From contig NZ_KE136481.1 in the NCBI RefSeq assembly GCF_000407185.1, positions 1,898,136-1,962,135 on the forward strand: DNA of 64,000 bases, read 5' to 3'. Source of the stretch: Enterococcus malodoratus ATCC 43197 (GTDB lineage Bacteria; Bacillota; Bacilli; Lactobacillales; Enterococcaceae). Both the position numbers and the translations under genes were made by a program. The notes beneath the pieces are model-generated. The model ran no database searches. It worked only from the letters and a program-made list of their open reading frames with translations, and was not told the origin of the DNA. The number at the start of each line of letters is the position of its first letter. The stretch's first letter is position 1. Shown piece by piece: positions 8,312-21,417 of the stretch.

Positions 8312-8341
8312 CAAAAAAAGCTGTCAAAAATCGACAGCTTT
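8312..8341 (-). terminator. Terminator of the rbs operon
   Basis: AAAGCTGTC and GACAGCTTT form a 9-bp stem with A7/T7 run-out on the minus strand, directly after the rbsU stop. Confidence 0.88.
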
Positions 8342-9227
8342 AGATCATCACCGTCATCGCAGCCGCTGCTAGAATCAGCAACAAACCAACGATCGTAATG
8401 GTCATTTCTTTTTTAGTTTTCTTTTGACCTAAGAACCAGATACCCGTTAAGGTTGCCAAAACTACTGAAGTTTGAGACAGGATAAAACCAGTGGCTAAAC
8501 CGTTCATATCCGGTTGTGCAGAGATCAAGTAAGTCAACGCAGCAAAAGCGAAAAAGAAACCAGAAAAAATATGTTTATAAGAAACAGGTTCTGCAAGAGC
8601 CGATTTCTCTTTATCTTTCACACTTAAAATTACTGAATAAACCAGCGCAACTATAAGCATGCCAATCGCTTGAGGCAGAAATGCGTGCATTCCATCAATG
8701 CTGGTTGCCTGCGGTGCAGCTGAATACGCCCAATAACCGATCTCACCAACAGCTAGTAAAAGCACCGCTTTTTTTAGGATACTTGCTTTTTCTTTGGTTT
8801 TTTCTTCTGTCCAAACCGTCATCCATGCTCCTAAAATAATTAATACTAAGGCTAAACCACCCAATAATTTGGCATTCATCCCCGGCCAATCACCTAGCGC
8901 AAAAACACCCCATAACGAGGCACCCAGCAATTGGAACGCCGTCGTTATCGGCATTGCTCGAGATGAACCAATCAATGTGAATGATTGAAAGGTAATGATT
9001 TGAGCAATCGCCCAGCCTACTCCAGAAAGAATCGAAAAGACTAAATCCATTCCTGTTGGAAGACCCATTCCGTTGAACACGGCAAAAACTAATGCAAAGA
9101 TCAAGGTGCCTAAAGTCGAGCCTAAGATTTGATTTACTGGACGGCCGCCAATTTTTGATGCGATGGTTGGGTATAGTCCCCAACCAAGTAACGGTCCTAA
9201 TCCAATCAAGATCGCTGTTGTATTCAT
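8340..9227 (-). CDS. rbsU: Ribose uptake protein of the GRP/RbsU family
   Basis: A 295-residue membrane protein with about ten predicted helices, from the glucose/ribose porter family (GlcU/RbsU). It shows the family N-terminus 'IGLGPLLGWGLYPTIASKIGG' and the internal repeat of two five-helix halves. It is last in rbsK-rbsD-rbsU, the gene set known from staphylococci and Lactobacillus sakei, where RbsU replaces the ABC importer. Imported free ribose would then go to RbsD and RbsK. Confidence 0.9.
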   Translation of the reverse strand: MNTTAILIGLGPLLGWGLYPTIASKIGGRPVNQILGSTLGTLIFALVFAVFNGMGLPTGMDLVFSILSGVGWAIAQIITFQSFTLIGSSRAMPITTAFQLLGASLWGVFALGDWPGMNAKLLGGLALVLIILGAWMTVWTEEKTKEKASILKKAVLLLAVGEIGYWAYSAAPQATSIDGMHAFLPQAIGMLIVALVYSVILSVKDKEKSALAEPVSYKHIFSGFFFAFAALTYLISAQPDMNGLATGFILSQTSVVLATLTGIWFLGQKKTKKEMTITIVGLLLILAAAAMTVMI

Positions 9228-9251
9228 ATTATTTCCTCCTCGTAAAAATGC

Positions 9252-9647
9252 TTAAAATACGACGCCGCTCTCCAATAAAATATTGGCATAAGGGGTCATT
9301 TCGCCTGTCCGGATGAATGCTCGACTATCGTGCAGAGCCGACTTCATCTCGCTATGAGGAAGAAATGTCACTGGGGTTTCAGGTAATCGTTCTTGAATCT
9401 TTGTCAGCATTTCAGGGTTTTCCGTGTTGATTTCTTCTGCTAAATAAATCCGTTGAACAGCTAGTTCTTCTAACACATTATTCAAAACATCCATGAAACT
9501 CGGAATACCATTATCGACTGCTAAATCAATTTTTTCAGTTGTCATTGGCACTGGCATACCGGCATCGCCAATACTTAATTGATCAAAGTGACCCATTTGT
9601 GCGATTACGCGAGAAATATCTGAGTTGATGACTTTACTTTTTTTCAT
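9252..9647 (-). CDS. rbsD: D-ribose pyranase
   Basis: 131 residues, full length for RbsD, which converts beta-D-ribopyranose to the furanose form used by ribokinase. The N-terminal '[20 protein letters not shown]' carries the catalytic His and Asp, and the C-terminal '[17 protein letters not shown]' is the family signature. Lies 16 bases after rbsK. Confidence 0.95.
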
Positions 9648-9663
9648 GCTAAAAATCCTTTCA

Positions 9664-10569
9664 TTACTTCAATTCGTTTTTGTATGGAATAGATGGTTGA
9701 GCACCAAATCGTTGTACCGTAAGAGAAGACGCTTTGTTTCCATATTCGATGGCTTGTTCTAAGTTGCTGAAATCCTTCGCTAGGATACTGCTCATCGCAC
9801 CGATAAACGTATCTCCCGCAGCAGTTGTATCCACCGCGTTTACTTTGAATGCCGGTATGATTCCGCTTCGACCGTTCACATCATAGAAGGCCCCTTTACT
9901 GCCGATCGTAATGATTACCGCTTCGATTCCTAATTGATGCAGATGATCTGACGCAGTTTTTAGACTTGCTTCATCCGTGACTTTGATCCCAGTTAAAATT
10001 TCTGTTTCGGTTTCATTCGGAATAATCATATCCGTAACTTTTAACAAGTCTTCTGGCACTTCTTCTAATGCTGGAGCTGGATTTAAAATCGTTTTTACAC
10101 CGGCTTGTCGGGCGATGGTAAAAGCTTCGATCGTACTTTCTAAAGTGCTTTCAAATTGCGCAATAACAAAATCGCTGGCTTTGATCAATTCAGCATGCTC
10201 TTTTACTTGTTGCGGTGTGAAAGCGTTGTTGGCACCTGAATGAATCATGATGCTGTTTTCGCCTTGATCGTCAACAATGATGTAGGCTTGTCCTGTGGCT
10301 TGCTTTTCTAACGTTTGCACACCAGATAAGTCGATGCCTTCTTCTGATAAAAGTTCACGCATCATATCACCAGCGGCATCATTTCCGACTGCTCCAATAA
10401 AATTGGTGACTGTTTCAGAACGTTTCGCTGCAACGGCCTGATTCGCACCCTTACCTCCGCCAGCAGAGAAGATCTCCTTCGTGTGCATCGTTTCACCTGG
10501 TTTTGGCATTTGCTTCACCCGAATCGTGCGATCAAGGTTGATACTCCCAATGATTGTAATCGTATTCAT
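9664..10569 (-). CDS. rbsK: Ribokinase
   Basis: PfkB-family kinase of 301 residues converting D-ribose to ribose 5-phosphate. The start at 10569 has GGAG 8 bases upstream; an ATG 18 bases earlier has no ribosome site. It carries the N-terminal 'GSINLDRT', the '[13 protein letters not shown]' substrate loop and the C-terminal '[13 protein letters not shown]' with the catalytic Asp and anion hole. A LacI-type double operator lies just upstream. Confidence 0.96.
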
Positions 10570-10618
10570 TTTATTCACTCCATTCATAGTTGTCAGATTC
10601 GTTCATTTGATTTAAGTT

Positions 10619-10641
10619 AAAACGTTTTATTAAAACGTTTT
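10619..10641. promoter_or_regulatory. Double RbsR operator (two AAAACGTTTT palindromes)
   Basis: Two copies of the 10-bp palindrome AAAACGTTTT (10619-10628 and 10632-10641) lie centre to centre 13 bp apart between rbsR and rbsK. The central CG is typical of LacI-family operators. Either RbsR or CcpA could bind. Confidence 0.75.
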
Positions 10642-10675
10642 AACTCGACACCAAAAATATAGCACAGCTTGAAAG

Positions 10676-11668
10676 CTATTTCAAGCGTGCAGTTGAAAAT
10701 CGTTTGATCAATTGAACCGGCAGAGTCTTTTCTTCCCAATTTTTCTCAGGTTGCTCTACTCTTTCTAATAATAAATTCGCTGTCGTTTGGCCCAATTCAT
10801 AGATTGGTTGTGCGATCGTCGTCAATTGCGGTGTGACATATTCACACATATCAATATTATCGTAACCAATCACGCTGTAATCCTGCGGAATTCTTTTCTC
10901 TACATCCGCTAATCCAAGATACAAACCAAAAGCTAATTCATCATTAATGGCAAAAATCGCAGTTACATCTGCCTTAACTATTTCTTTGGCTGCTTGACGC
11001 CCTCCATCTTTGGACAGCTCCGCATGAACCAATACAGCATTGGGATAAATCTTTTGAAAACCAGTCAGACGCGTCTGAATATTCTCTGTCGCATTTTCCG
11101 GTAAAACGACCGCTACTTTTTGATGCCCTAATTGATTCAGATGCTCACCAGCCAGTTTCCCGCCCGAAAGGTCATCGGTCAAAACAGCATCGCTATACCC
11201 TTCTGCCTTCTTTTGATCCAATACGATATAAGGAAGGTTCTTTTTCCGTAAACTGTCATTGATAGCTTGATTGGAGATCGCAGAACTAGCGATGATATAG
11301 CCGTCAACTCCTCGGCGGCTCAACTCTTCTAAATAATCGGTCTCTTTTTTCGTATCCAGATCAGCATTGCATAACATCGTTACAAAATTTTCGCGATACA
11401 AAACACCTTCGATTCCACGAACCAACGTGCTAAAAAAGGGATTCGTGATATCAGGTACTAGCACGCCAATCGTCTTGCTTTTTTTCATGACCATCCGGCG
11501 GGCAAAATAGTCCGGCTCATAGTTCAATGCAGCCTTAGCCGCCAGCACCTTCTCGACTGTTTTCGGACTGAATTTCTGCTCATTGCCGTTTAAAATTTGG
11601 GAGACCGTGGCGATCGAAACCCCAGATTGTTTAGCAACATCCTTAATAGTAATTTTCTTATTTTTCAT
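10676..11668 (-). CDS. rbsR: LacI-family ribose operon repressor
   Basis: 330 residues: N-terminal LacI helix-turn-helix ('TIKDVAKQSGVSIATVSQILNG') and hinge helix (to about 60), then a periplasmic-binding-like effector domain ('IGVLVPDITNPFFSTLVRGIE'). It lies upstream of rbsK on the same strand, with the probable operators between the two. A weak 8-bp hairpin at 10668-10687 overlaps the stop without a good T-run, so some read-through into rbsKDU is likely. Confidence 0.9.
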   Translation of the reverse strand: MKNKKITIKDVAKQSGVSIATVSQILNGNEQKFSPKTVEKVLAAKAALNYEPDYFARRMVMKKSKTIGVLVPDITNPFFSTLVRGIEGVLYRENFVTMLCNADLDTKKETDYLEELSRRGVDGYIIASSAISNQAINDSLRKKNLPYIVLDQKKAEGYSDAVLTDDLSGGKLAGEHLNQLGHQKVAVVLPENATENIQTRLTGFQKIYPNAVLVHAELSKDGGRQAAKEIVKADVTAIFAINDELAFGLYLGLADVEKRIPQDYSVIGYDNIDMCEYVTPQLTTIAQPIYELGQTTANLLLERVEQPEKNWEEKTLPVQLIKRFSTARLK

Positions 11669-11907: not shown

Positions 11908-12834
11908 ATGAACAAAACAACAAAAATTATTTTAGGAATCGTCCTAGTTTTAGTTATTGTACTGATTGCGGCAGGAAATTATTTCTATTCTTATGCCGTC
12001 GTTCCGGCAAAAAAAGATTTTCTGGCAGATGGCTCGGCAAAAAAATCAACCGAATTGATTACTGCCGAAAGCTGGTTCAACAATAAAGACAATCGCAGCG
12101 ACTGGAAACTTACATCAGACGACGGCTTGAAATTATCAGCTTATTATCTGCCGGCAGAAAAAAATCAACATAAAACGGCTATCCTCGCACATGGCTACAT
12201 GGGACAGGCTTCTGATATGCCTCAATATGCAAAAATATATCACGACCTTGGCTACAATGTCTTGATGCCGGACGCTCGCGGTCACGGAAAAAGTGAAGGA
12301 GACTATATCGGTTTTGGCTGGCCTGAACGAAAAGACTATCTGCAATGGATTGATCGCATCATCGAAAAAGATTCTCAAGCTGAAATCGTCCTTCACGGTG
12401 TCAGTATGGGGGGAGCAACCGTTATGATGACTAGCGGTGAAAAATTGCCGGACAATGTCAAAGCCTTTGTCGAAGATTGCGGCTACAGCTCAGCCAAAGG
12501 GGAATTGAATTACCAATTAAAAGAAATGTTCAATCTGCCATCATTTCCATTGATTCCTGTCACTAGTCTGGTAACAAAAGTTCGCGCAGGATACTTTTTT
12601 GGTGAGGCCGATGCTATCAAACAGCTAAATAAAAACCATCGTCCAATGTTGTTTATTCATGGTGACAAAGATGATTTCGTGCCTTATTCAATGTTGGACG
12701 AAGTTTATAACGCAACTAAAGGACCGAAAGAAAAGTATGTGGTCCACGGTGCCAAACATGCCGAAGCACTAAGTAAAGACCCTGACATGTATCAGAAAAA
12801 GGTTACTGAATTTGTACAGAAATATGTCCACTAA
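11908..12834 (+). CDS. Membrane-anchored alpha/beta hydrolase
   Basis: 308 residues with one N-terminal transmembrane anchor (about 6-28) and an extracytoplasmic alpha/beta hydrolase fold. Visible elements are the oxyanion 'AHGYMGQASD', 'DARGHGKSEGD', the nucleophile elbow GVSMGG (Ser at about 160), a late acidic 'GDKDDFVPY' and the catalytic His in 'GAKHAEA'. Similar Firmicute proteins are annotated as S9-like peptidases or lipases; the substrate is unknown. AAGGAG precedes the ATG. Monocistronic on the plus strand. Confidence 0.85.
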   Translation: MNKTTKIILGIVLVLVIVLIAAGNYFYSYAVVPAKKDFLADGSAKKSTELITAESWFNNKDNRSDWKLTSDDGLKLSAYYLPAEKNQHKTAILAHGYMGQASDMPQYAKIYHDLGYNVLMPDARGHGKSEGDYIGFGWPERKDYLQWIDRIIEKDSQAEIVLHGVSMGGATVMMTSGEKLPDNVKAFVEDCGYSSAKGELNYQLKEMFNLPSFPLIPVTSLVTKVRAGYFFGEADAIKQLNKNHRPMLFIHGDKDDFVPYSMLDEVYNATKGPKEKYVVHGAKHAEALSKDPDMYQKKVTEFVQKYVH

Positions 12835-12855
12835 TCTTTTTAGTTAACTACTATA

Positions 12856-12889
12856 CAAAAAACGAGACACTTAAAGTGCCTCGTTTTTT
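12856..12889. terminator. Bidirectional terminator
   Basis: AAAAACGAGACACTT and AAGTGCCTCGTTTTT form a stem with one mismatch between the convergent hydrolase and SorC-regulator genes. Confidence 0.85.
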
Positions 12890-13833
12890 GCTTGTTCTAA
12901 TAAATACTCAGCTAAGGTATCCGTCACTGTTATATGAGTAAAAATTTTCGTTTTCGTTCCCACGTACAGAACATCTTTTTTACTATCTTCATAGCAGGCA
13001 ACAGCTACATTGGAAATTTTACGCACATCCTCAACACCTAATCCAATGACATTTTCATTGATCTCACAAGTCACTTCCTGACCCGCCGAATCGATAAATT
13101 TCGAGTTGACATCCCCGATCACATTGAGCTTTTCCAGTTCGTCGATATCCTGCTGATCGACATATCCGATCTCGGTCATCGTATTATTTTTAGAAAAAGG
13201 ACTAGCGATTCCGACTAAAGCGAAATCAACATTTTTCCCCGCCTCTAAGACATCCCGAATCCCTTCATTTTCGACCAGACTTTTCTTGATAAAGGCATTA
13301 TCCACCAATGCTGGTGCATACAAATACTTACACTTAGCCCGTAATTTTTTTGAAAGATCATAGGCCAGCTGATTGGAATGGACATCGACCATTTCTGATC
13401 CTAGTCCGCCAATCAATGGAATAATGGTGGCATCTGCATGATTTTCATAAGGATACTCATCAACGATTCCTCGCAGCATTTTGCCCCAAGAAAGTCCAAT
13501 CGTTTTAGCCTTAGCAATTTCTTTTTGAAAGGCCGTGATCGCCGTTTGAACCAATAAACGTTCGATTTCATCTTTTCGTAAACTGCTGGTATCTAAAACT
13601 GCGGCCTTTTTTAACCCGAATAGCTCTTCTAAGGCCAGTTCTAATTCGATTGAATAAGCGCTCTCACTCTTTATAAAAATATCAACAACGCCTTCATTTT
13701 TTGCGTCATTCAAATACTTTGAAACCAGCGAACGAGAGATGCCCAATTGTTTGGCGATCTCCGACTGTTTCAAATTTTTTTTATAATACATCGTAGCTAC
13801 TTTTACGATGTCGCGATTATGTTTTATAGCCAT
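12871..13833 (-). CDS. SorC/DeoR-type sugar-phosphate-responsive regulator
   Basis: 320 residues from the ATG at 13833; an in-frame upstream extension to 13914 has no ribosome site and would be atypical. The N-terminal HTH is at about 10-55 ('KQSEIAKQLGISRSLVSKYLNDA'). The rest is the SorC effector domain (NagB/RpiA-like), with 'TIGLSWGKML' and 'IPLIGGLG'. SorC regulators respond to phosphorylated sugars or polyols made by the neighbouring PTS. It lies just downstream of PTS operon A and probably controls it through the repeated GACATATG sites at 17884-17914. Confidence 0.85.
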   Translation of the reverse strand: MAIKHNRDIVKVATMYYKKNLKQSEIAKQLGISRSLVSKYLNDAKNEGVVDIFIKSESAYSIELELALEELFGLKKAAVLDTSSLRKDEIERLLVQTAITAFQKEIAKAKTIGLSWGKMLRGIVDEYPYENHADATIIPLIGGLGSEMVDVHSNQLAYDLSKKLRAKCKYLYAPALVDNAFIKKSLVENEGIRDVLEAGKNVDFALVGIASPFSKNNTMTEIGYVDQQDIDELEKLNVIGDVNSKFIDSAGQEVTCEINENVIGLGVEDVRKISNVAVACYEDSKKDVLYVGTKTKIFTHITVTDTLAEYLLEQAKNEAL

Positions 13834-14163
13834 TATGATCCCATCCCCTGAACAACTTTTGATCTCATTCACTATACGGTTGATTCCAATCTCACGCAAG
13901 TAGGAAAAAGTCATGACCGAAGCTGCTTTGTTTATTGTATTCGCAACTCAACGGTCTCCTAACCATCATTAAGCTTAAAAATAATTCAAATCGTCGTATC
14001 TTGCAAAAAGTAAAACTCTTAATGAATAATTGTACCTTCGTAGACTTATCCCTCTGCTTAATTAGTAGAATTCATCATACATAAACTCGAGATATAACTA
14101 TTACTAAGAGCAGAATCGACAAATGAGGATGCACCAAATTCTGGCACATCCTCGACCTTCGGA
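13834..14163. other. Intergenic region between PTS operon A and its SorC regulator
   Basis: AT-rich, with no ORF of substance. It holds the operon A terminator at its right end and must hold the regulator's promoter, which I could not place with confidence. Confidence 0.5.
14125..14153 (-). terminator. Hairpin ending PTS operon A
   Basis: On the minus strand GAGGATGTGCCA and TGGTGCATCCTC form a 12-bp stem with two G-U pairs. The T-run is poor, so termination may be partial. Confidence 0.6.
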
Positions 14164-14517
14164 TTAAATAATTTCGATCACGCCGCCGACTTCAAATTCT
14201 GGAAAAATACCTGGACTGACAATAATCGCTCCTGGTAAGATTTCTCCAATTGCGTTACGAAAATAAATCGAGATATGGCCTAATTCTTCAAAATTCGCAT
14301 TTGCCTGTGAGCCGACTTCTTCGATCGTAAACTCCTGATCGCCAAATTTGACTTTTCCACCAACTTTTAAGGCATCACTTGGGCGATCCTCAAACTCATG
14401 AATCACACAAATATCTCTCAATTCTGCCGTGGCAGAAGGACCAAACAAAATAATCAATCGTTCTTCTTCAAATGCTGGCACCATGCTGCCGATTTCTATA
14501 ATTTTAGATTTTACCAT
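14164..14517 (-). CDS. PTS glucitol/sorbitol-family EIIA (operon A)
   Basis: 117 residues from the ATG at 14517. The phosphoryl-accepting His is at about residue 40 ('ICVIHEF'), matching the EIIA-Gut (SrlB) site. It receives phosphate from HPr and passes it to the EIIB Cys. It is last in operon A (oxidoreductase, GutM, EIIC, EIIB, EIIA). Confidence 0.9.
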   Translation of the reverse strand: MVKSKIIEIGSMVPAFEEERLIILFGPSATAELRDICVIHEFEDRPSDALKVGGKVKFGDQEFTIEEVGSQANANFEELGHISIYFRNAIGEILPGAIIVSPGIFPEFEVGGVIEII

Positions 14518-14544
14518 CCGTCCATTCGCTCCATTCAAACTATT

Positions 14545-15615
14545 TTAATACATTCCGAAACTAGCTAACCATGCCAAGATTACAGCCGTGAAACCAGTTA
14601 ACATCCGGCTGTAAAGAATCGCTGGTACACCGATCGATACCGTTTCTGGTTTTGCTTCTCCTAATGACAAGCCCACAGGAATAAAGTCACATCCGGCATG
14701 AGCACTGATAGCAAATAATGCTGGCAATGCATATTGAACCGGAATCGATCCATTAGCAATCTGTGTTCCAATCAATACCCCGATAACCTGAGAGATTACC
14801 GCGCCAGGACCAAGAATCGGAGACAATACAGGGATGCTACAAATCAAAGCTAAGACGATCATTCCTGGTAATGAACCGGCTAGAGGAGAAAGCACTTTTG
14901 CTAACCAATCACCAATTCCAGTATAATTGATAATCCCTACGATCATACTGATAAAGGCCATAAATGGAATAATATTTTTCAATAGCATGTCCACAGCATC
15001 ACGTCCAGATTGATAGAAGGTACTCATAACACCACCAATGGCACGAGAGAAGCGGACTAAGAAACTGTCTTTTTTCGCTTGTTCTTCTGCATGATCTTCT
15101 TTAATTTTCGAATAGCGTTCTTTAAATTCTTCGTCAGACTCTCTGCCTTCTTGTTTAGTCACGATTTTTTCTGTTGCGGCTGCCGACTCGGCATCTGTCT
15201 TATGAGCATGATTGATTGCTGCCATTTGCCGTTCTTCAAGATCTGCATTTTCAACTAGCTCAACATCTTCGGGACGAACACCTGAAACAAAAATATCTTC
15301 CGTAATGTGTTTGGACAACGGACCTGAAGGTGATGATGGCAATACATCAACCGTTGGAATTCGTTTCATCGGATAAACACCGATTCGAGCCGTTCCGCCG
15401 CAGTCAATTACAGCACATAACGTTTCTTCTTCTGGAATCGAATTTTTAAATCCATCACAAGGAATACAACCAGTCAAATCAGCGATTTGCTGCGCTACGG
15501 GGTGAATTCCGCCACCAGTAACAGAAACAACTTTATTTTTTTGCTCAGTAGGCGTTAATGTCAGACCAACACCCCAACCTTTATTTCCAGGTTTTACAAA
15601 TACTGTTTTGTACAT
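14545..15615 (-). CDS. PTS glucitol/sorbitol-family EIIB with membrane domain (operon A)
   Basis: 356 residues. The N-terminal EIIB domain (1-130) has the phospho-Cys at about 72 in 'VIDCGGTARIG'. A charged linker follows (about 140-195), then a C-terminal membrane domain with 4-5 helices ending in 'AWLASFGMY', equivalent to SrlE. It is paralogous to the gene at 21890-22894. Phosphorylates a polyol during import; the substrate is unknown (see findings). Confidence 0.92.
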   Translation of the reverse strand: MYKTVFVKPGNKGWGVGLTLTPTEQKNKVVSVTGGGIHPVAQQIADLTGCIPCDGFKNSIPEEETLCAVIDCGGTARIGVYPMKRIPTVDVLPSSPSGPLSKHITEDIFVSGVRPEDVELVENADLEERQMAAINHAHKTDAESAAATEKIVTKQEGRESDEEFKERYSKIKEDHAEEQAKKDSFLVRFSRAIGGVMSTFYQSGRDAVDMLLKNIIPFMAFISMIVGIINYTGIGDWLAKVLSPLAGSLPGMIVLALICSIPVLSPILGPGAVISQVIGVLIGTQIANGSIPVQYALPALFAISAHAGCDFIPVGLSLGEAKPETVSIGVPAILYSRMLTGFTAVILAWLASFGMY

Positions 15616-15628
15616 TATGCTTCCTCCT

Positions 15629-16162
15629 TTACGCGGCTGCTTTCTTCGCTTCTCTAGCCATCATGAATTTCGTCAATTTTTCAGTTACGATCCCACGCAT
15701 CAAAATCACGACAACCCCTACTAAAAAGTAGCGAACTGCCAAGCTTGATTGACTAAAACCGGCCTTCGTAACACCGTTCGCGATTCCTAGATAAACAAAT
15801 AATTCACCTGCGTTAGCGTAAGGGAACAAACCTGTTACCGGATGGACAAAAGAGACCGCCGCATCATAAAAAGCTGGTTTTTCTTCTTCTCGTACGAATT
15901 TCCCAAAAGTGTAAGCCATGGGGTTCGTTAACATCAGAACTGCCAAAATCGGCATCAATGAATAGCGTAAAATCATATATTTTGAACAATAGCGGATTGC
16001 TCTGTCGACACGTTCTTCACCAATAAATGAGATAACTGAATAAGTAAATGTTAAAAGTACAATTAATAATGGGACGATTCCGGTCATGTACCCCATAAAC
16101 TGTTCGCCGCCGGCTTCAAACATACCAATAAAGTTTTTTCCTGCCCATTCGATATATTTCAT
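15629..16162 (-). CDS. PTS glucitol/sorbitol-family EIIC (operon A)
   Basis: 177 residues with 4-5 membrane helices, equivalent to SrlA. Motifs 'NPMAYTFGKFVREEEKPAFYDAA' and 'FPYANAGELFVYLGIANG' are family-typical and shared with the paralogue at 22915-23475. AGGAGG precedes the ATG. Lies 13 bases upstream of the EIIB start. Confidence 0.92.
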   Translation of the reverse strand: MKYIEWAGKNFIGMFEAGGEQFMGYMTGIVPLLIVLLTFTYSVISFIGEERVDRAIRYCSKYMILRYSLMPILAVLMLTNPMAYTFGKFVREEEKPAFYDAAVSFVHPVTGLFPYANAGELFVYLGIANGVTKAGFSQSSLAVRYFLVGVVVILMRGIVTEKLTKFMMAREAKKAAA

Positions 16163-16180
16163 TATAAAATTCCTCCTTTT

Positions 16181-16558
16181 CTAGGTAACCGCTTCCAATT
16201 TGCGTGTATAAATTTGCGATAGTGCCTTTTCAATCTGAGGTGCTCTTTTTTGTTGTAATGCTGTACTGTAGTTGACTAATTGCGCCCCCTTGAAGGATGG
16301 TTCCTCTTTGAAACGTGCAAAAATCGTCAATCCCTTACAGATATAACATTGAATGATCTTTCCGTCAGCATCGACAACAACTGCGACGATTACTCGCAAA
16401 ATTTTTCCTTTAACGACTTCGGTATAAAATTCATACTCGCTACCCGCTTGTTCAGTCGTGATTTTCTTGATGAAACTTTGATAGTACTTCACCTGAACAA
16501 GACTAAAAAGACTTTGACAAAGCATTAAAATGATCACAACAATAACTAATCCACTCAT
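16181..16558 (-). CDS. gutM: GutM-like glucitol operon activator (operon A)
   Basis: 125 residues from the ATG at 16558 (GGAG 6 bases upstream). It has one N-terminal membrane helix ('VIVVIILMLCQSLFSLV') and a cytoplasmic domain containing 'GKILRVIVAVVVDADGKI' and 'ARFKEEPSFKGAQL', characteristic of GutM. GutM proteins assist the operon regulator. Here the regulator is SorC-type rather than GutR-type, an unusual pairing. Confidence 0.85.
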   Translation of the reverse strand: MSGLVIVVIILMLCQSLFSLVQVKYYQSFIKKITTEQAGSEYEFYTEVVKGKILRVIVAVVVDADGKIIQCYICKGLTIFARFKEEPSFKGAQLVNYSTALQQKRAPQIEKALSQIYTRKLEAVT

Positions 16559-16575
16559 AAGCTCCATCCTCTCCA

Positions 16576-16605
16576 AAAGCAGATGAGGAATCCCTCATCT
16601 GCTTT
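16576..16605 (-). terminator. Intercistronic hairpin between the oxidoreductase and gutM
   Basis: AAAGCAGATGAGG, loop AATC and CCTCATCTGCTTT form a perfect 13-bp stem with only a short T-run. It is probably an attenuator or mRNA-stabilising element that makes the enzyme mRNA more abundant than the PTS mRNA. Confidence 0.65.
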
Positions 16606-16614
16606 ACCTTTGCC

Positions 16615-17865
16615 TTAATCGCCAAACGTTGAATCTTGAAGTTTCCGCAAACGATAGACTGTTGTCGATTCATCGATCTCGATGTCATCATACGTCAAGA
16701 ATGTTCCATCTTTGATGTCGCGTTTCGCAACGGAAGAACCACCAACTAAACCGATTGGTACATTGTTGTTTTTAACTAAATCAGCGTGCGTTTCTAACAC
16801 ACCGCGGACACAATAGCCGCCGATACCATCGATTTTTTCTCCTGCTTTGATGTCCTTTTTCGCTACCGCAACTGTTTCAGAAATTGGAGCGCCTAATGGA
16901 ACAATCGCATGATCATGATTTAAGACTGCTTTCGCAATCGTAATCGGTGTTTCTAAGCTAGCTAAGTGATATGGCCGATATAAGATGTGATGGTCACGGT
17001 CGCCTTTTTTCATCAAATAGCTTAATTCATGACGAGCCCCATCATTTTGTCCTTTAACAATCACGAAGACCCCTGGCGCTAAACCGTCAACGTATTCCAC
17101 TACGCCGTACTTATCTAAGACTCCGCCGTTTTCTTTTAAATCTAAATCTTTGACTACTGAATCAACGTCTCCGCTAATCCCGTGCATTCCTACTTTGTCA
17201 GGAATAAAACCGATGGCATTTGATAATAAATTCATCTCAGCCATAGTCTTCGTTCCATCTTGGAAAGCCGCCAACATATGACTAGACATTTGTTTAGAGT
17301 CCGCTTCTGCTTGGGCTGTATCGGGGTTGGCTCCAACCTTTAACTTATTGTTCTTACCTTTACCTGCAACTAAAACTTCCATACCCATGCTTTTCGCAAA
17401 CTCAAATAATTCAGTCGTTGCAGCAGGCTCATCACCGTCGGAACCCGTATAAACTAAGTCCGCAGAATCATACATTTTCTTCATCAATGGGCCAATTGTG
17501 ATATCCACTTCCACGTTCAGCAAAACAATGTGTTTTTTCGCCAACAGTGTCTCTAACGAAATTTGTGCACCAACTTCGGGAACTCCCGTCGCATCAACAA
17601 TAACTTCTACCTTATCCGAATGAATAATTTCTTTAAAATCTGAGCTAACTAAGATATCCACTTTCTTCTCTGCACTTGCATTGTAAGCATCCGCGGCACG
17701 TTGTGCAGCATCCTTATTGATATCACTGATCCCTGTTACTGCCATTCCCGGAATCGTTGAAATCTGAGCAATCATCCCAAAACCCATTTGACCTGCACCA
17801 ATTACCCCAACTTTGATTGGTGCGCCATTTTTTTCTCTTTCCAAAAGCTTCCCATAAAGTGTCAT
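16615..17865 (-). CDS. SAF-domain NAD(P)-dependent oxidoreductase, DXR-II/DRL-like superfamily
   Basis: 416 residues from the ATG at 17865, which has GGAGGGG upstream; two earlier ATGs lie inside the operator repeats. The N-terminal Rossmann fold has GAGQMG at about 23-28 and a homoserine-dehydrogenase-like core ('EVIVDATGVPEVGAQ', 'TGSDGDEPAA', 'AGKGKNNKLKVGANPD'). The C-terminus (about 325-400) is a SAF domain ('AVAKKDIKAGEKI', 'SSVAKRDIKDGTFLTYDD'). This domain pair is that of COG4091, which includes the alternative DXP reductoisomerase DRL/DXR-II of Brucella, although many members lack DXR activity. It is first in a PTS operon and is the operon's only enzyme, so it should act on the imported polyol phosphate. 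The exact reaction is unknown. Confidence 0.8.
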   Translation of the reverse strand: MTLYGKLLEREKNGAPIKVGVIGAGQMGFGMIAQISTIPGMAVTGISDINKDAAQRAADAYNASAEKKVDILVSSDFKEIIHSDKVEVIVDATGVPEVGAQISLETLLAKKHIVLLNVEVDITIGPLMKKMYDSADLVYTGSDGDEPAATTELFEFAKSMGMEVLVAGKGKNNKLKVGANPDTAQAEADSKQMSSHMLAAFQDGTKTMAEMNLLSNAIGFIPDKVGMHGISGDVDSVVKDLDLKENGGVLDKYGVVEYVDGLAPGVFVIVKGQNDGARHELSYLMKKGDRDHHILYRPYHLASLETPITIAKAVLNHDHAIVPLGAPISETVAVAKKDIKAGEKIDGIGGYCVRGVLETHADLVKNNNVPIGLVGGSSVAKRDIKDGTFLTYDDIEIDESTTVYRLRKLQDSTFGD

Positions 17866-17883
17866 TATTACCCCTCCATACTT

Positions 17884-17914
17884 TTTTGACATATGACAAT
17901 GCTTTTGACATATG
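17884..17914. promoter_or_regulatory. Direct repeats TTTTGACATATG, probable SorC-type operator
   Basis: Two exact 12-base copies (17884-17895 and 17903-17914) are offset by 19 bases, close to two helical turns. They lie just downstream of the predicted transcription start and before the ribosome site, so a bound regulator could block elongation. Confidence 0.65.
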
Positions 17915-17929
17915 CCTTAAGACAACTTT

Positions 17930-17957
17930 AGTATAACACCGGTCGAAACTATGTCAA
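17930..17957 (-). promoter_or_regulatory. Sigma-A promoter of PTS operon A
   Basis: On the minus strand there is a perfect -35 TTGACA (17957-17952), a 16-base spacer and -10 TATACT (17935-17930). The start is predicted near 17923, about 58 bases before the oxidoreductase ATG. Confidence 0.8.
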
Positions 17958-17965
17958 CGCTTTCT
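17952..17965. promoter_or_regulatory. cre-like site overlapping the operon A -35 box
   Basis: TGTCAACGCTTTCT matches 13 of 14 positions of the cre consensus TGNAANCGNWNNCW. Its position over the -35 fits CcpA repression. Confidence 0.5.
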
Positions 17966-18353
17966 TTTCACAAACTATCATTTTGTATTAAATGGAACAT
18001 ATGTTACAAAAGTGATTTGTACCGTAAAAAACGTGATATTTCAACAACCAACCAATATTCCTTACTAAATTAAAATGGTTTTAAAAAAAGAATAGCCTAA
18101 TTTGCACATTCTTAAAATAACTTAAAAACCAATGCGTTGACATTGTGGTAATCCTGGATTAAAAATGAAAAAAAGGTTTTAATTGATTATCTATTCACAA
18201 TCATAGAAGTATATACGATCTTATTAAGATAGTAAAAAAATCAAAAAAATATATTAGACCAATTTGAACAGGTCCCATTTACCCTTCAATTGTGAAAAAA
18301 CACACGATGATATCTTTGCGTAAGATGACTCTGTTCGACAGTAGAGAAAAAAC

Positions 18354-18392
18354 AAAAACGCCGCTTTAACTTTTGTCAAAGCGGCGCTTTTT
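18354..18392 (-). terminator. Terminator of the mtnK-mtnA-aldolase unit
   Basis: CGCCGCTTT and AAAGCGGCG form a perfect 9-bp GC-rich stem with a 10-base loop and a T5 run on the minus strand, just after the aldolase stop. Confidence 0.92.
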
Positions 18393-18393
18393 C

Positions 18394-19035
18394 TTATTGT
18401 TGTCCATAGGTTGCGAATTTCTCCAAAACCTCTTTCATTTGCTCTTGGTTCAATAATTTGGGAGTTCCGATACATCGTGCACGGTAGTCTAGCTTCGCTA
18501 AAAATTCAATGTCTTTAGCTACACCGAAAGCGCTGGACAAATCAGGTCCGATTGTAAGAACCCCATGATTCCCTAATAAAATCCCATTGTCTTCGTGGAT
18601 AAAATTAAAGGCCTCTTCAGCTAGTTCACGGGTTCCAAAAGTTTTATAATCACAACAGCGAACCTTTTCACCGACAGAGCCGATAATGTAATGCAGCGGC
18701 TCGATCTCTTGCTGCAGACAAGCAAAGGTTGTCGCATATTCTGAATGCGTATGAACCACTGATCGTACATCTGGACGATTCACATAAAAAATACTATGAA
18801 GATCATATTCACTTGAAGGTTTGCGGGCTCCTTCTAAAACTTTACCATGAAGATCCATCAAGACAATATCTTCTGGCTCCGTCTCAAAATAAGGAATTCC
18901 ACTAGGACTGATCAGCATAGCCTGCTCCTCAGGTAGATAAATACTGATATTACCGCCCGTACCTGTAGTTAATTTTTCGGTGATAAGTTTTTTGCCATAT
19001 TCAACAATCATTTCACGTTCTTTTTGATGTTTCAT
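18394..19035 (-). CDS. FucA-like class II aldolase (probable 5-deoxyribulose/methylthioribulose 1-phosphate aldolase)
   Basis: 213 residues. Zn-binding and catalytic residues of fuculose-1-phosphate aldolase are in place: Glu76 in 'SSEYDLH', His95 and His97 in 'VVHTHS', and His157 in 'GNHG'. 'SGIPY' and 'KTFGTRELAEEA' are FucA-like rather than typical of MtnB dehydratase. It closes a unit with MtnK and an MtnA-like isomerase and lies 12 bases after the latter. That trio is the DHAP shunt known for 5'-deoxyribose and methylthioribose, yielding DHAP plus acetaldehyde or methylthioacetaldehyde. Substrate is inferred from context; the methionine-salvage genes mtnW/X/B/D are absent nearby. Confidence 0.82.
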   Translation of the reverse strand: MKHQKEREMIVEYGKKLITEKLTTGTGGNISIYLPEEQAMLISPSGIPYFETEPEDIVLMDLHGKVLEGARKPSSEYDLHSIFYVNRPDVRSVVHTHSEYATTFACLQQEIEPLHYIIGSVGEKVRCCDYKTFGTRELAEEAFNFIHEDNGILLGNHGVLTIGPDLSSAFGVAKDIEFLAKLDYRARCIGTPKLLNQEQMKEVLEKFATYGQQ

Positions 19036-19047
19036 TTTCTACTCCAA

Positions 19048-20103
19048 TCAATAAAAATTATTTTCAGGCTGCTCTATTAAATAGCGTTTCAAATCGTAAG
19101 GTGAAAAAATTCCGCGATCAGTCACGACTGCGCCGATTAATTCAGGCGGAGTGATATCAAAGGACGGATAGATCGCTTTGACTCCATCTAAAGTATGTTT
19201 GATCCCATTTAATTCCATAACTTGTTCCGGATCTCGCATCTCGATCTTGATACTTTCGTGACTGATTTTATCCGTATCAGGAATACCTGTCACAAAATAA
19301 GGAACTCCAAAACGCTGAGCTAAGATCGCAATTTGATACGTCCCAACTTTATTAGCAATATAGCCGTCTTGAGCAATCGTATCGGCTGCCGATGTAAATA
19401 GATCGATTTTTTCGTGTTCCATCAAATAAGCAATCATATTATCAGAAACAACGGTCGTATCAAATCCCATCTCCGCGCAACAGCTGGCAGTCAAACGTGC
19501 ACCTTGTAAATACGGACGAGTCTCTGCACAAAAGAAGCGCAGCGTCTTTTTCTGTTCGATTGCTTCCCGCAGCAGCATTCCGATAATCGTTTCTCCAAAG
19601 CATTGCGTTAAAACCGTACCGTTATCAGGAATTTTTTCGATCAAATATTTTGCCACTTGATCCATGGTGTAGTAACGTCGATTCAAGGAATCGATCGTGT
19701 TTTGTTTAATAGCCTCCGTTGGATCTTGTCCCATTTCCAACGCAAGCTCTGCGACTGCCACACACTTTTCAGTGATTAATGACATTCGATTGGCAGTGGT
19801 TGGTCGAGCATTAGCGATCGTGTGGGATGCTTCTTTCAGATACGCGATCTGTTCAACCCGCGCTAAATTCTTGCTTTCTTCCGCCGCTAACGCCATACCC
19901 ATTCCCGCTGCGGTGTAAGGTCCGGCACTTTGAGTCACCATATCAGTGATCGCTTGTGCCACGGCTTGATGGTTCTCACATTCGACAAATTCCACTCGAG
20001 TCGGATATATTCGGCGATCTAGAATGCGAACTTTTCCGTTTTCGTACCAAGCAACATTTTCATATTGCAATAATGTTGGCATCGTATAATCTTGTCTTTC
20101 CAA
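19048..20103 (-). CDS. MtnA-like aldose-1-phosphate isomerase (eIF2B-like fold)
   Basis: 351 residues from a TTG at 20103 with AGAAGG 8 bases upstream; a GTG 9 bases earlier has no spacing to that site. The family converts methylthioribose 1-phosphate or 5-deoxyribose 1-phosphate to the ketose 1-phosphate. The catalytic pair is visible: Cys168 in 'LTQCFGE' and Asp241 in 'AADTIAQDGYIANKVGTY'. The Cys loop is divergent (canonical MtnA has a CNxG-type loop), which hints at altered substrate choice. Lies between the kinase and aldolase genes. Confidence 0.85.
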   Translation of the reverse strand: MERQDYTMPTLLQYENVAWYENGKVRILDRRIYPTRVEFVECENHQAVAQAITDMVTQSAGPYTAAGMGMALAAEESKNLARVEQIAYLKEASHTIANARPTTANRMSLITEKCVAVAELALEMGQDPTEAIKQNTIDSLNRRYYTMDQVAKYLIEKIPDNGTVLTQCFGETIIGMLLREAIEQKKTLRFFCAETRPYLQGARLTASCCAEMGFDTTVVSDNMIAYLMEHEKIDLFTSAADTIAQDGYIANKVGTYQIAILAQRFGVPYFVTGIPDTDKISHESIKIEMRDPEQVMELNGIKHTLDGVKAIYPSFDITPPELIGAVVTDRGIFSPYDLKRYLIEQPENNFY

Positions 20104-20172
20104 CTTATTCACCTTCTAATTTGTTTTAAGATACTTATTTAAATATTCTAATGCTGTTTTGCTTTATTCAAT

Positions 20173-21417
20173 CTATTCATTAGATAAGTCTGAGTGAATA
20201 TCTAGCTCATTCATGCCATTGACTAGCTGGCTGCCGCTGGTAATATGTTGACGATTGATAATTAATTGGATACCTAGTTTTAGCAGCATTCGTTCAGCCG
20301 TAATTTTTTTCTCAGAAGAAATAAGTGACAATTCTTTGACCTTCGAATCACCTACAACTCTACGAATAATCTCTGTTCCGGCATAACCAACAGCATCCGC
20401 CAAAATTTCTTGTAGCATGGTCTCTTTAAAGGCGCTGTTGCGATACAATGGAAAGGTTACTGCTTGGTCGTAGTAGGTTTCGAGTTTTTCTTTCACCTGA
20501 TCGTAAACTGCAGCAATCGTGTCTTTACTCCACTGGTGAAACACTTGATCAACTGTCGAATCAAACAGATTTTTAACCAATGGAAAATATAAATGTGCTA
20601 AAACGTTGCCGATGTCATAACCCGCTGGACCATAAAAGGCAAACTCAGGATCAATCACTTTTAATCCGGTTTGATTGACAAAGATAGAACCAGTATGAAG
20701 ATCCCCATGTAATAACGATTGGGCATTGTTCATAAAATTATTGCGCAGCAGCGCAACTTCTGCTTTTAACGGGGTATTTTCGTATAAATTTTCTTTGACG
20801 AACTGTTCATTGCCAGAGGTCAAAATATTTCGCTGTTTGTAATCGTCATAAGGCTCAGTAAAAACCAGATCTTCGCTGATATCGCACATTTCGGGATTAA
20901 TAAAATCCTTAACTCGCTGTTTTTTCACATCACGATCTAAAACAATATCACTAGTTAAAAGCAATGTGCGAACCAAATATTCCGTGATTTTCTCACTAAA
21001 ATCAGGAAAAATTTTCTTCTCAATCAATTCGTAACGCATGTTTTGATAGTCCGAGATATCTTCCATCGTCAAAGCATACATCTTTTGATCATAATAATAA
21101 ACTTTCGGTACAAACTTTGGGGCCAACTCATTTTGTAAACGTAAAATTTCCGCTTCGATTCGATTACGATCAATAGCCAACAATCGACCAGAAGAACGCA
21201 GCCTTACATCTGCTTGCTTGATTATCAAACTTTCATGTGTGGCTTCATTCACTACACGAAAAACATAATTGATATTGCCATCACCGATCTCCGTCACTGT
21301 TATCGGCGCATTAGCAGGGAAAGCAGCTAACTCCTCCACGATATATTGTTTGACCGTCTGTATATCCATTAAAAAATGTTCCTGATACGCCGGCAATTTC
21401 CTCGGTGTAAGTTTCAT
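20173..21417 (-). CDS. mtnK: S-methyl-5-thioribose kinase family protein
   Basis: 414 residues of the aminoglycoside-phosphotransferase-like fold. The N-lobe has 'EIGDGNINYVFRV' and 'LIIKQADVRLR'. The catalytic loop is 'LLHGDLHTGSIF' (Asp and His), with the metal-binding 'VIDPEFAFYGPAGYDIGN'. It phosphorylates C1 of methylthioribose; family members also act on 5-deoxyribose. The start at 21417 has GAGG 7 bases upstream. It follows glucitol PTS operon B, from which it is separated by a terminator hairpin, and leads the mtnA-aldolase pair. Confidence 0.88.
   Translation of the reverse strand: MKLTPRKLPAYQEHFLMDIQTVKQYIVEELAAFPANAPITVTEIGDGNINYVFRVVNEATHESLIIKQADVRLRSSGRLLAIDRNRIEAEILRLQNELAPKFVPKVYYYDQKMYALTMEDISDYQNMRYELIEKKIFPDFSEKITEYLVRTLLLTSDIVLDRDVKKQRVKDFINPEMCDISEDLVFTEPYDDYKQRNILTSGNEQFVKENLYENTPLKAEVALLRNNFMNNAQSLLHGDLHTGSIFVNQTGLKVIDPEFAFYGPAGYDIGNVLAHLYFPLVKNLFDSTVDQVFHQWSKDTIAAVYDQVKEKLETYYDQAVTFPLYRNSAFKETMLQEILADAVGYAGTEIIRRVVGDSKVKELSLISSEKKITAERMLLKLGIQLIINRQHITSGSQLVNGMNELDIHSDLSNE

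Follow-up and report, generated by a model that had tools for sequence, protein, structure and literature searches.

The 64,000-nucleotide stretch of Enterococcus malodoratus ATCC 43197 DNA analysed here (contig NZ_KE136481.1, positions 1,898,136 to 1,962,135; hereafter the window) carries a six-gene operon on its minus strand (12871..17892), in which a homologue of the Brucella reductoisomerase DXR-II/DRL is combined with a glucitol-type phosphotransferase system (PTS) and a SorC-type regulator. The operon is probably part of a degradation route for a branched polyol that reverses the first two steps of the 2-C-methyl-D-erythritol 4-phosphate (MEP) pathway. The PTS would import and phosphorylate a branched tetritol, most likely the plant metabolite 2-C-methyl-D-erythritol (methylerythritol), giving MEP; the DXR-II homologue would oxidise and isomerise MEP to 1-deoxy-D-xylulose 5-phosphate (DXP) with NAD+; and an acetoin-dehydrogenase-type complex (E1a, E1b, E2 and E3) would cleave DXP with CoA and NAD+ to acetyl-CoA and glyceraldehyde 3-phosphate. 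The second step, the reverse of a reported family activity, is proposed because of active-site residues, cofactor motif and genomic context, and the complex is linked to DRL because of a common operator, synteny and co-occurrence.

Pfam and NCBIfam profile searches of the window proteins recover the operon as it had been described from the DNA letters in a preliminary description, in the order DRL, GutM, EIIC, EIIB, EIIA and SorC, all on the minus strand. The DRL gene (16615..17865; longest open reading frame 16615-17892) probably starts at the ATG at 17865, encoding 416 amino acids, as judged from the ribosome-binding sequence GGAGGGG just before it and from the alignment; its product matches PF21135 DRL_cat (191.7 bits), SAF (40.6 bits) and Rossmann models. 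It is followed by GutM, a small accessory protein of glucitol-type PTS operons (16181..16576; PF06923, 59.5 bits), EIIC (15629..16162; EII-GUT 257 bits, and NF049923 217 bits, over cut-off), EIIB(C) (14545..15615; EIIBC-GUT N 227 and C 151 bits, and NF049924 488 bits, over cut-off) and EIIA (14164..14538; PTSIIA_gutA PF03829, 115 bits), with gaps of 6 to 38 bp among these five genes. The SorC/DeoR-type sugar-binding regulator (12871..13833; Sugar-bind 172.5 bits) has a longest reading frame reaching 13914 and a probable start at 13833, predicted from its ribosome site, which lie 249 and 330 bp from EIIA, respectively. Glucitol/sorbitol operons (srlAEB-D-gutM) have the EIIC, EIIB, EIIA and GutM families in common with the window operon. 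They encode an SrlD-type sorbitol 6-phosphate dehydrogenase, whereas the window operon has DRL instead, plus a SorC-type regulator, and no short-chain dehydrogenase/reductase (SDR) was found between 12871 and 17892. A Listeria operon (SorC-DRL-GutM-EIIC-EIIB-EIIA) has the same genes in a different order, its DRL being 79% identical to that of the window; E1-E3 genes are absent from the shown stretch of Listeria as they are from the window operon.

The genome belongs to the Enterococcus raffinosus/avium group. The window DRL, which is 100% identical to the copy of E. raffinosus DSM 5633 (best named match), aligns over its full length with the Brucella abortus DXR-II structure (PDB 3upl, see also 3upy; Carretero-Paulet et al. 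2013, PMC3847144) at E 8.8e-86 and 39% identity over 409 aligned residues, and consists of the same three parts. Ten positions named in PMC3847144 were compared. Nine of them (G121, E174, F178, K191, K193, T229, H250, R320 and Y322) are as in Brucella, while position 351 is Val in Brucella and Ile in the window. According to PMC3847144, Thr229 separates DXR-II from DLO1/DLO2, with Lys191, Lys193, Arg320 and His250 as further DXR-II residues; 11 members of the DXR-II clade complement a DXR mutant, and activity in vitro is below that of DXR-I. The same paper places Listeria members in the clade (we take the Listeria entry of its table to be the DRL gene of the operon above) and reports DXR-II activity from Finegoldia magna, in which it found no other MEP and no mevalonate genes. 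All five of these residues are present in the window DRL within the Rossmann, DRL catalytic and SAF architecture, which bears out its earlier description as a DXR-II-type homologue. In a FastTree set of 149 sequences, including the window and Brucella and assembled apart from the published DXR-II sequences, 144 (Brucella included) bear T229 and in these K191, K193 and R320 are invariant; the five without Thr229 have no PTS or E1 context.

The cofactor site differs between the two enzymes. The segment that closes the second Rossmann strand reads A55-R56-R57 in Brucella and D-I-N in the window DRL. An Arg-Arg-type motif at this place is the usual sign of NADPH and Asp that of NAD+, so the Asp of the window DRL suggests NAD+-dependent oxidation. 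The Brucella protein is of NADPH type, while the window enzyme has an NAD-type motif, belongs to a PTS operon and comes from a genome that lacks the MEP pathway. Among T229-bearing enzymes, window excluded, the residue aligned with Brucella position 55 is Asp or Glu in 112 of the 115 proteins scored as operon-borne (EIIA, EIIB, EIIC, E1 or a PfkB kinase within 6.5 kb of DRL) vs 15 of 28 others (Fisher 2e-8, uncorrected for kinship). The 28 include Brucella, whose neighbourhood was not looked at, and several of the 15 acidic "non-operon" enzymes do adjoin related genes (FGGY kinase, GutM, PtsI, SorC). The same division is seen within single genomes: in six Pseudomonadota from which both copies were fetched (G659, G633, G517, G513, G736 and G533), one copy has T-R-R and no E1 or PTS neighbours while the other has E-L-N and is E1-linked, in all six cases. 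These genomes have no DXR-I match and possess IspF, so that the T-R-R copy can supply MEP, leaving the E1-linked copy free for catabolism. The window's genome (99% complete) has neither a DXR-I (PF02670) nor an IspF (PF02542) match, and its DRL therefore cannot feed MEP isoprenoid synthesis. Two marks of a biosynthetic DXR, an NADPH-type motif and a MEP pathway in the genome, are thus missing, and together with a cre-like site on the promoter these features support an oxidative, catabolic direction, as had been predicted.

The promoter TTGACA-16-TATACT (17930..17957, minus strand) matches 11 of 12 consensus positions, scores highest of 18 promoter-like sites in 12800-18600 and is kept in 10 aligned upstream regions including the window's (one with TTGGCA). 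Shuffled sequences average 14.8 such sites, so that their number is no higher than chance, and the strong promoter of the preliminary description stands out because of its own quality and conservation. Overlapping the -35 box is the cre-like site AGAAAGCGTTGACA (17952..17965, minus strand), with two mismatches to the CcpA consensus; its core, AAGAAAGCGTTG.CA, is invariant across the 10 sequences. The upstream alignment and a genome search further identify a putative operator, CATATG-N13-CATATG, with two cores 19 bp apart (17890..17914, minus strand), and a third CATATG core upstream of the promoter (17998..18003) is likewise invariant in the 10 aligned sequences.

In the whole 4.62-Mb genome the exact operator (no mismatch) occurs only twice, once at the DRL operon and once at a SorC-E1a-E1b-E2-E3 operon, whose promoter region has, by inspection, the same layout of AAAGCGTTGACA, a -10-like box and then CATATG-N13-CATATG. 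An exact search of 21 genomes returned 23 sites in 10 genomes, 21 of which lie at one of these two operons: 12 at the start of the DRL gene, 0.45-0.55 kb before the DRL_cat match, and nine 1.0-1.1 kb upstream of a close E1a, a gap filled by SorC in the window's genome. The other two are in G010 and G005, that of G010 between two genes apparently unrelated, judged by their translations. All 10 genomes with an operator site have DRL; of the 11 without, only G043 does, and there DRL and E1 share one cluster. The backward pattern, used as a control, gives no site in the window's genome and four sites in three other genomes. Both operons would probably be switched on in the presence of substrate by a SorC-type regulator, the putative ligand of the paired CATATG operator.

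The partner operon came to light in a search of 16 genomes with an operon-embedded E1a: the genome that contains the window encodes a protein 86% identical to this query at C1:1884483-1885469, roughly 13 kb beyond the window and 30 kb from DRL. E1a is the second gene of the partner operon, whose E1a-E3 genes span about 1880.7-1885.5 kb of C1, and its E1b, E2 and E3 are 90%, 62% and 72% identical to the best-matching proteins of DRL loci. The premise that DRL is the only enzyme therefore holds for the operon and not for the regulon, and the conclusion drawn from it, of a central metabolite reached in a single enzymatic step, is not supported, as a thiamine pyrophosphate (TPP)/lipoamide complex is encoded under the same operator in the same genome. 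Across 60 genomes an E1a of at least 80% identity is present in 14, all among the 18 with DRL, and in none of the 42 without (Fisher 2e-10, uncorrected for kinship; 13 of the 14 belong to one genus, and this relatedness inflates the statistics). Upstream of SorC-E1-E3 in the window's genome (L229 9501-16567, C1) stand a PRD regulator, a GatABC-type PTS and an SDR protein with butanediol/acetoin dehydrogenase models among its many SDR matches. A similar GatABC-SDR set accompanies E1-E3 in G198 (L232) and, in G459, lies beside a DRL-PTS cluster (L234/L235).

In a 56-sequence E1a tree the DRL-linked proteins of Bacillota, Alphaproteobacteria and the window's genome join a butanediol-dehydrogenase-adjacent E1 (joint-clade support 0.955), the reference E1 in this clade being preceded by a sigma-54 activator and followed by 2,3-butanediol dehydrogenase. 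The partner E1a lies nearer to this acetoin-dehydrogenase-type E1 than to the pyruvate dehydrogenase (PDH) type; the genome's other full-length E1a, which falls outside the joint clade at 31-32% identity to the partner, is probably PDH and was taken as such without a family scan. A TPP motif and a lipoyl Lys motif (TDKIAIE) are visible in the complex sequences. The DRL-linked E1a thus shares a clade with an E1 of acetoin-dehydrogenase (AcoABCL) type but forms a separate sister group, linked to DRL and SorC vs a sigma-54 activator, with DXP as its proposed substrate. Acetoin dehydrogenase splits CH3-CO-CHOH-R into acetyl-CoA and an aldehyde, and because DXP (CH3-CO-CHOH-CHOH-CH2OP) is such a ketol, the same chemistry would give acetyl-CoA and glyceraldehyde 3-phosphate. 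The synthetic direction has precedent: PMC3424233 describes a mutant E. coli PDH that forms DXP in vivo, and cites Yokota and Sasajima 1986 for synthesis of 1-deoxyketoses by pyruvate and acetoin dehydrogenases.

The association of DRL with this complex recurs in Bacilli, Clostridia and Alphaproteobacteria. For close relatives, 78 loci were taken from the best 80 of 139 confirmed stretches and 77 counted (L055, with a broken frame, was dropped), neighbours being named from the scan of one or two proteins in each cluster. Up to 6.5 kb away from DRL these carry PTS genes in 72, GutM in 70, SorC in 74 and E1a/E1b in 16 of 77 loci, as well as transketolase/transaldolase/RpiB (17), a phosphoglycerate dehydrogenase (PGDH)-like dehydrogenase (15), class II aldolase (14) and triose-phosphate isomerase (TIM; 13). 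In a wider sample of 398 genomes from each phylum, DRL_cat was found in 39 of the Bacillota and 53 of the Pseudomonadota. Among 40 of the 45 Bacillota matches that were fetched, 27 have PTS genes, 17 E1 and 12 a PTS enzyme I nearby; of 20 Pseudomonadota loci, picked from the high-scoring matches and belonging to 14 genomes, 8 have E1, simple reading-frame calling having missed some E1a genes in these E1 counts. The commonest clostridial order is SorC-GutM-EIIC-EIIB-EIIA-DRL-E1a-E1b-E2-E3, to which lipoate ligase (L133), a lipoyl-synthase-like protein (L130) or PTS enzyme I are added. A gene of about 575 codons beside clostridial DRLs was considered as DXP synthase and rejected, three scanned copies being PTS enzyme I.

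The uptake genes vary from lineage to lineage, whereas DRL and E1-E3 are retained. Plasmids of Rhizobium sophoriradicis and of S. meliloti Rm41 hold the array SorC-DRL-E1a-E1b-E2-E3, with fba or lipA after it, and divergently transcribed genes for a CUT1-type ATP-binding cassette (ABC) transporter and a sugar kinase (of the PfkB family in the one scanned); in Terrarubrum a glucitol PTS and enzyme I are divergent from DRL-E1a-E1b-E2; and in Priestia E1-E3, a major facilitator superfamily (MFS) transporter, DRL and an FGGY kinase lie together. Among the best 25 of 713 plasmid records matching the clostridial E1a, 22 adjoin a DRL match, the other three not being among the 40 of 111 DRL matches listed. 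Phyllobacterium zundukense is a counter-example, its DRL accompanying an rbs-type ABC transporter with no E1 nearby.

Several observations weigh against the methylerythritol route. Four of the 18 DRL-bearing relatives (G010, G014, G015 and G033) have no close E1a, and in Listeria, where roughly 7 kb to either side was inspected, no E1-E3 genes were seen. The window genome's SorC-E1-E3 operon lies downstream of the galactitol-type (GatABC) PTS and SDR dehydrogenase, whose pathway the complex may mainly serve; these genes are possibly a second polyol feeder of the same complex. The DRL-linked E1 group itself is weakly supported (0.683) and also holds L232 and L268, copies whose retrieved surroundings contain no DRL. 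The nearest curated NCBIfam E1a model is pyruvate dehydrogenase (below cut-off), human PDH E1 alpha is the best match of solved structure for a clostridial E1a, pdhA is the annotation of the Priestia copy, and the L267 E1a, annotated acetoin:DCPIP (dichlorophenolindophenol) oxidoreductase, has no aco-type neighbours and falls outside the joint clade. The cofactor rule has three exceptions among operon-borne enzymes and 15 of the 28 others are acidic as well; moreover in some genomes, such as G308 and G793, the sole DRL_cat match is of Asp/Glu type and DXR-I is lacking, yet IspF is present, so NAD-type DRLs may work in synthesis too. Finally, at many DRL loci the place of E1-E3 is taken by transketolase, Fsa/transaldolase, RpiB, aldolase/TIM or phosphoketolase, neighbours for which a DXP product does not account.

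An alternative is that the PTS imports apiitol, a 2-C-hydroxymethyl-tetritol, and DRL turns its phosphate into xylulose 5-phosphate for the pentose phosphate or phosphoketolase pathway. The 17 close-relative loci with transketolase, Fsa/transaldolase or RpiB near DRL (for example L063, L066 and L076) would fit such a route, as would the L. salivarius order DRL-IIA-IIC-IIB-GutM-SorC-fsa-tkt and a phosphoketolase (one member identified) at the DRL loci of E. avium, E. pallens, Streptococcus caviae and Lactiplantibacillus, encoded on the strand opposite to DRL in the Enterococcus loci. The window DRL is 76% identical to the L063 copy linked to transketolase, transaldolase and RpiB, though 80% to the E1-linked L041 copy, and a comparison of E1-linked with pentose-phosphate-linked Bacilli DRLs found no position that fully splits the groups, the window being mixed at the best ones. 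However, the window operon holds no pentose phosphate gene, and the only other operator-bearing operon encodes an acetoin-dehydrogenase-like complex with no obvious use for xylulose 5-phosphate. The complex type favours the methyl ketol DXP because DXP is acetoin-like. Of the two products offered in the preliminary description, DXP from MEP is thus the one favoured, and xylulose 5-phosphate, less so here, fits the transketolase/transaldolase/RpiB operons elsewhere. The apiitol route may hold for clades with a pentose phosphate module; it is possibly that of the window as well, but we regard this as unlikely.

A rather unlikely alternative is that DRL acts as a plain NAD+ dehydrogenase without isomerisation, converting a linear polyol phosphate such as 1-deoxypentitol 5-phosphate to DXP or a similar ketol, which the TPP complex would cleave. 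The GatABC PTS and butanediol-dehydrogenase-related SDR before SorC-E1-E3 could likewise make a ketol from a vicinal diol, and the lower activity of DXR-II in vitro relative to DXR-I (PMC3847144) is compatible with such a role. Against it, K191, K193 and T229, which anchor fosmidomycin and substrate, are kept, K191 and K193 without exception among the T229-bearing sequences, and the complementation of a DXR mutant by 11 clade members (same source) speaks for a reductoisomerase. A role of the operon in isoprenoid, cofactor or stress chemistry, with DRL making MEP or precursors of 2-C-methyl-D-erythritol 2,4-cyclodiphosphate (MEcPP), or supplying DXP to the synthesis of thiamine or vitamin B6, is most improbable: DXR-II has been described as an isoprenoid enzyme (PMC3847144), and a 2026 review (PMC13001223) suggests that the incomplete MEP pathways of roughly half the Enterococcus species it covers may sense oxidative stress, but the absence of DXR-I and IspF matches, the latter contradicting MEcPP or MEP-isoprenoid output, the presence of PTS, GutM and SorC genes around DRL in almost all close relatives, the cre-like promoter and the NAD-type cofactor site all argue otherwise.

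The methylerythritol route bears on how the DXR-II family is understood, so far known as a patchily distributed and seemingly redundant isoprenoid enzyme. A catabolic regulon would explain why DXR-II occurs without a MEP pathway, beside a polyol PTS and as paired copies with different cofactor motifs. We tentatively suggest, short of calling it probable, that DXR-II is at its root a catabolic NAD+ enzyme, which in Bacillota and Alphaproteobacteria channels 2-C-branched polyols into central metabolism by running the MEP pathway entry in reverse, with interchangeable uptake (PTS, ABC transporter plus kinase, or MFS carrier plus kinase), that the NADPH-type isoprenoid enzyme of Brucella and its relatives is a derived copy, and that the pentose-phosphate clades turn apiitol into xylulose 5-phosphate. 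If the proposed pathway is correct, there is a defined way for bacteria to degrade methylerythritol, which a growth test and two purified proteins or complexes would suffice to examine. Among the open-licence papers listed on methylerythritol or apiose/apiitol catabolism, methylerythritol uptake with glucitol or sorbitol, deoxyxylulose with acetoin dehydrogenase, Listeria lmo0543/5/6 and DXR-II, none proposes this pathway, as judged from titles and abstract starts, and PMC11325843 (Gilliamella) had no bearing on it. Cornish, Roth and Poulter reportedly studied methylerythritol uptake genes in Salmonella, in work that was not among the papers listed.

Two further sugar-related clusters are found in the window. 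Upstream of the DRL operon (18394-21417) are genes for an MtnK-type methylthioribose kinase, an MtnA-type isomerase and a class II (fuculose-phosphate-type) aldolase (Pfam/NCBIfam), presumably resembling the dihydroxyacetone phosphate shunt for salvage of methylthioribose or 5-deoxyribose. A terminator-like site of 17 pairs (18391-18354) lies between the two operons, and the trio is probably a separate transcript. Co-operation of DRL with it was considered and rejected, given this site and the presence of the trio beside DRL in only 5 of 78 loci (L022-L026). The region 8340-11668 holds, judged from translations only, a ribose-like cluster with a GRP-type sugar permease, RbsD-like and ribokinase-like proteins and a LacI-type regulator.

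Three other gene sets recur near DRL in other genomes. A conserved protein of about 104-110 residues with CxxC pairs stands beside DRL, enzyme I or E1-E3 (L134 14069-14383, L149 2877-3206, L168 7507-7821, L133 8028-8342, L235 9003-9335, L232 13884-14213 and L236 6616-6954); it matches no Pfam family at E 1e-5 in L134, L149 and L133, and the L235 copy has a sub-cut-off cytochrome c7 match. An FBA-like class II aldolase and a PRK04302-type TIM, mostly with YjbQ/UPF0047 and often with a SorC of their own, form a module in L039, L043, L044, L046, L049, L066, L071, L075, L078, L080, L081 and L161. Inside the DRL-PTS operons of L030, L035, L036, L038, L060, L086, L094, L096 and L098, a Zn-dependent alcohol dehydrogenase is paired with a PGDH-like 2-hydroxyacid dehydrogenase, which could be a two-dehydrogenase epimerisation step.

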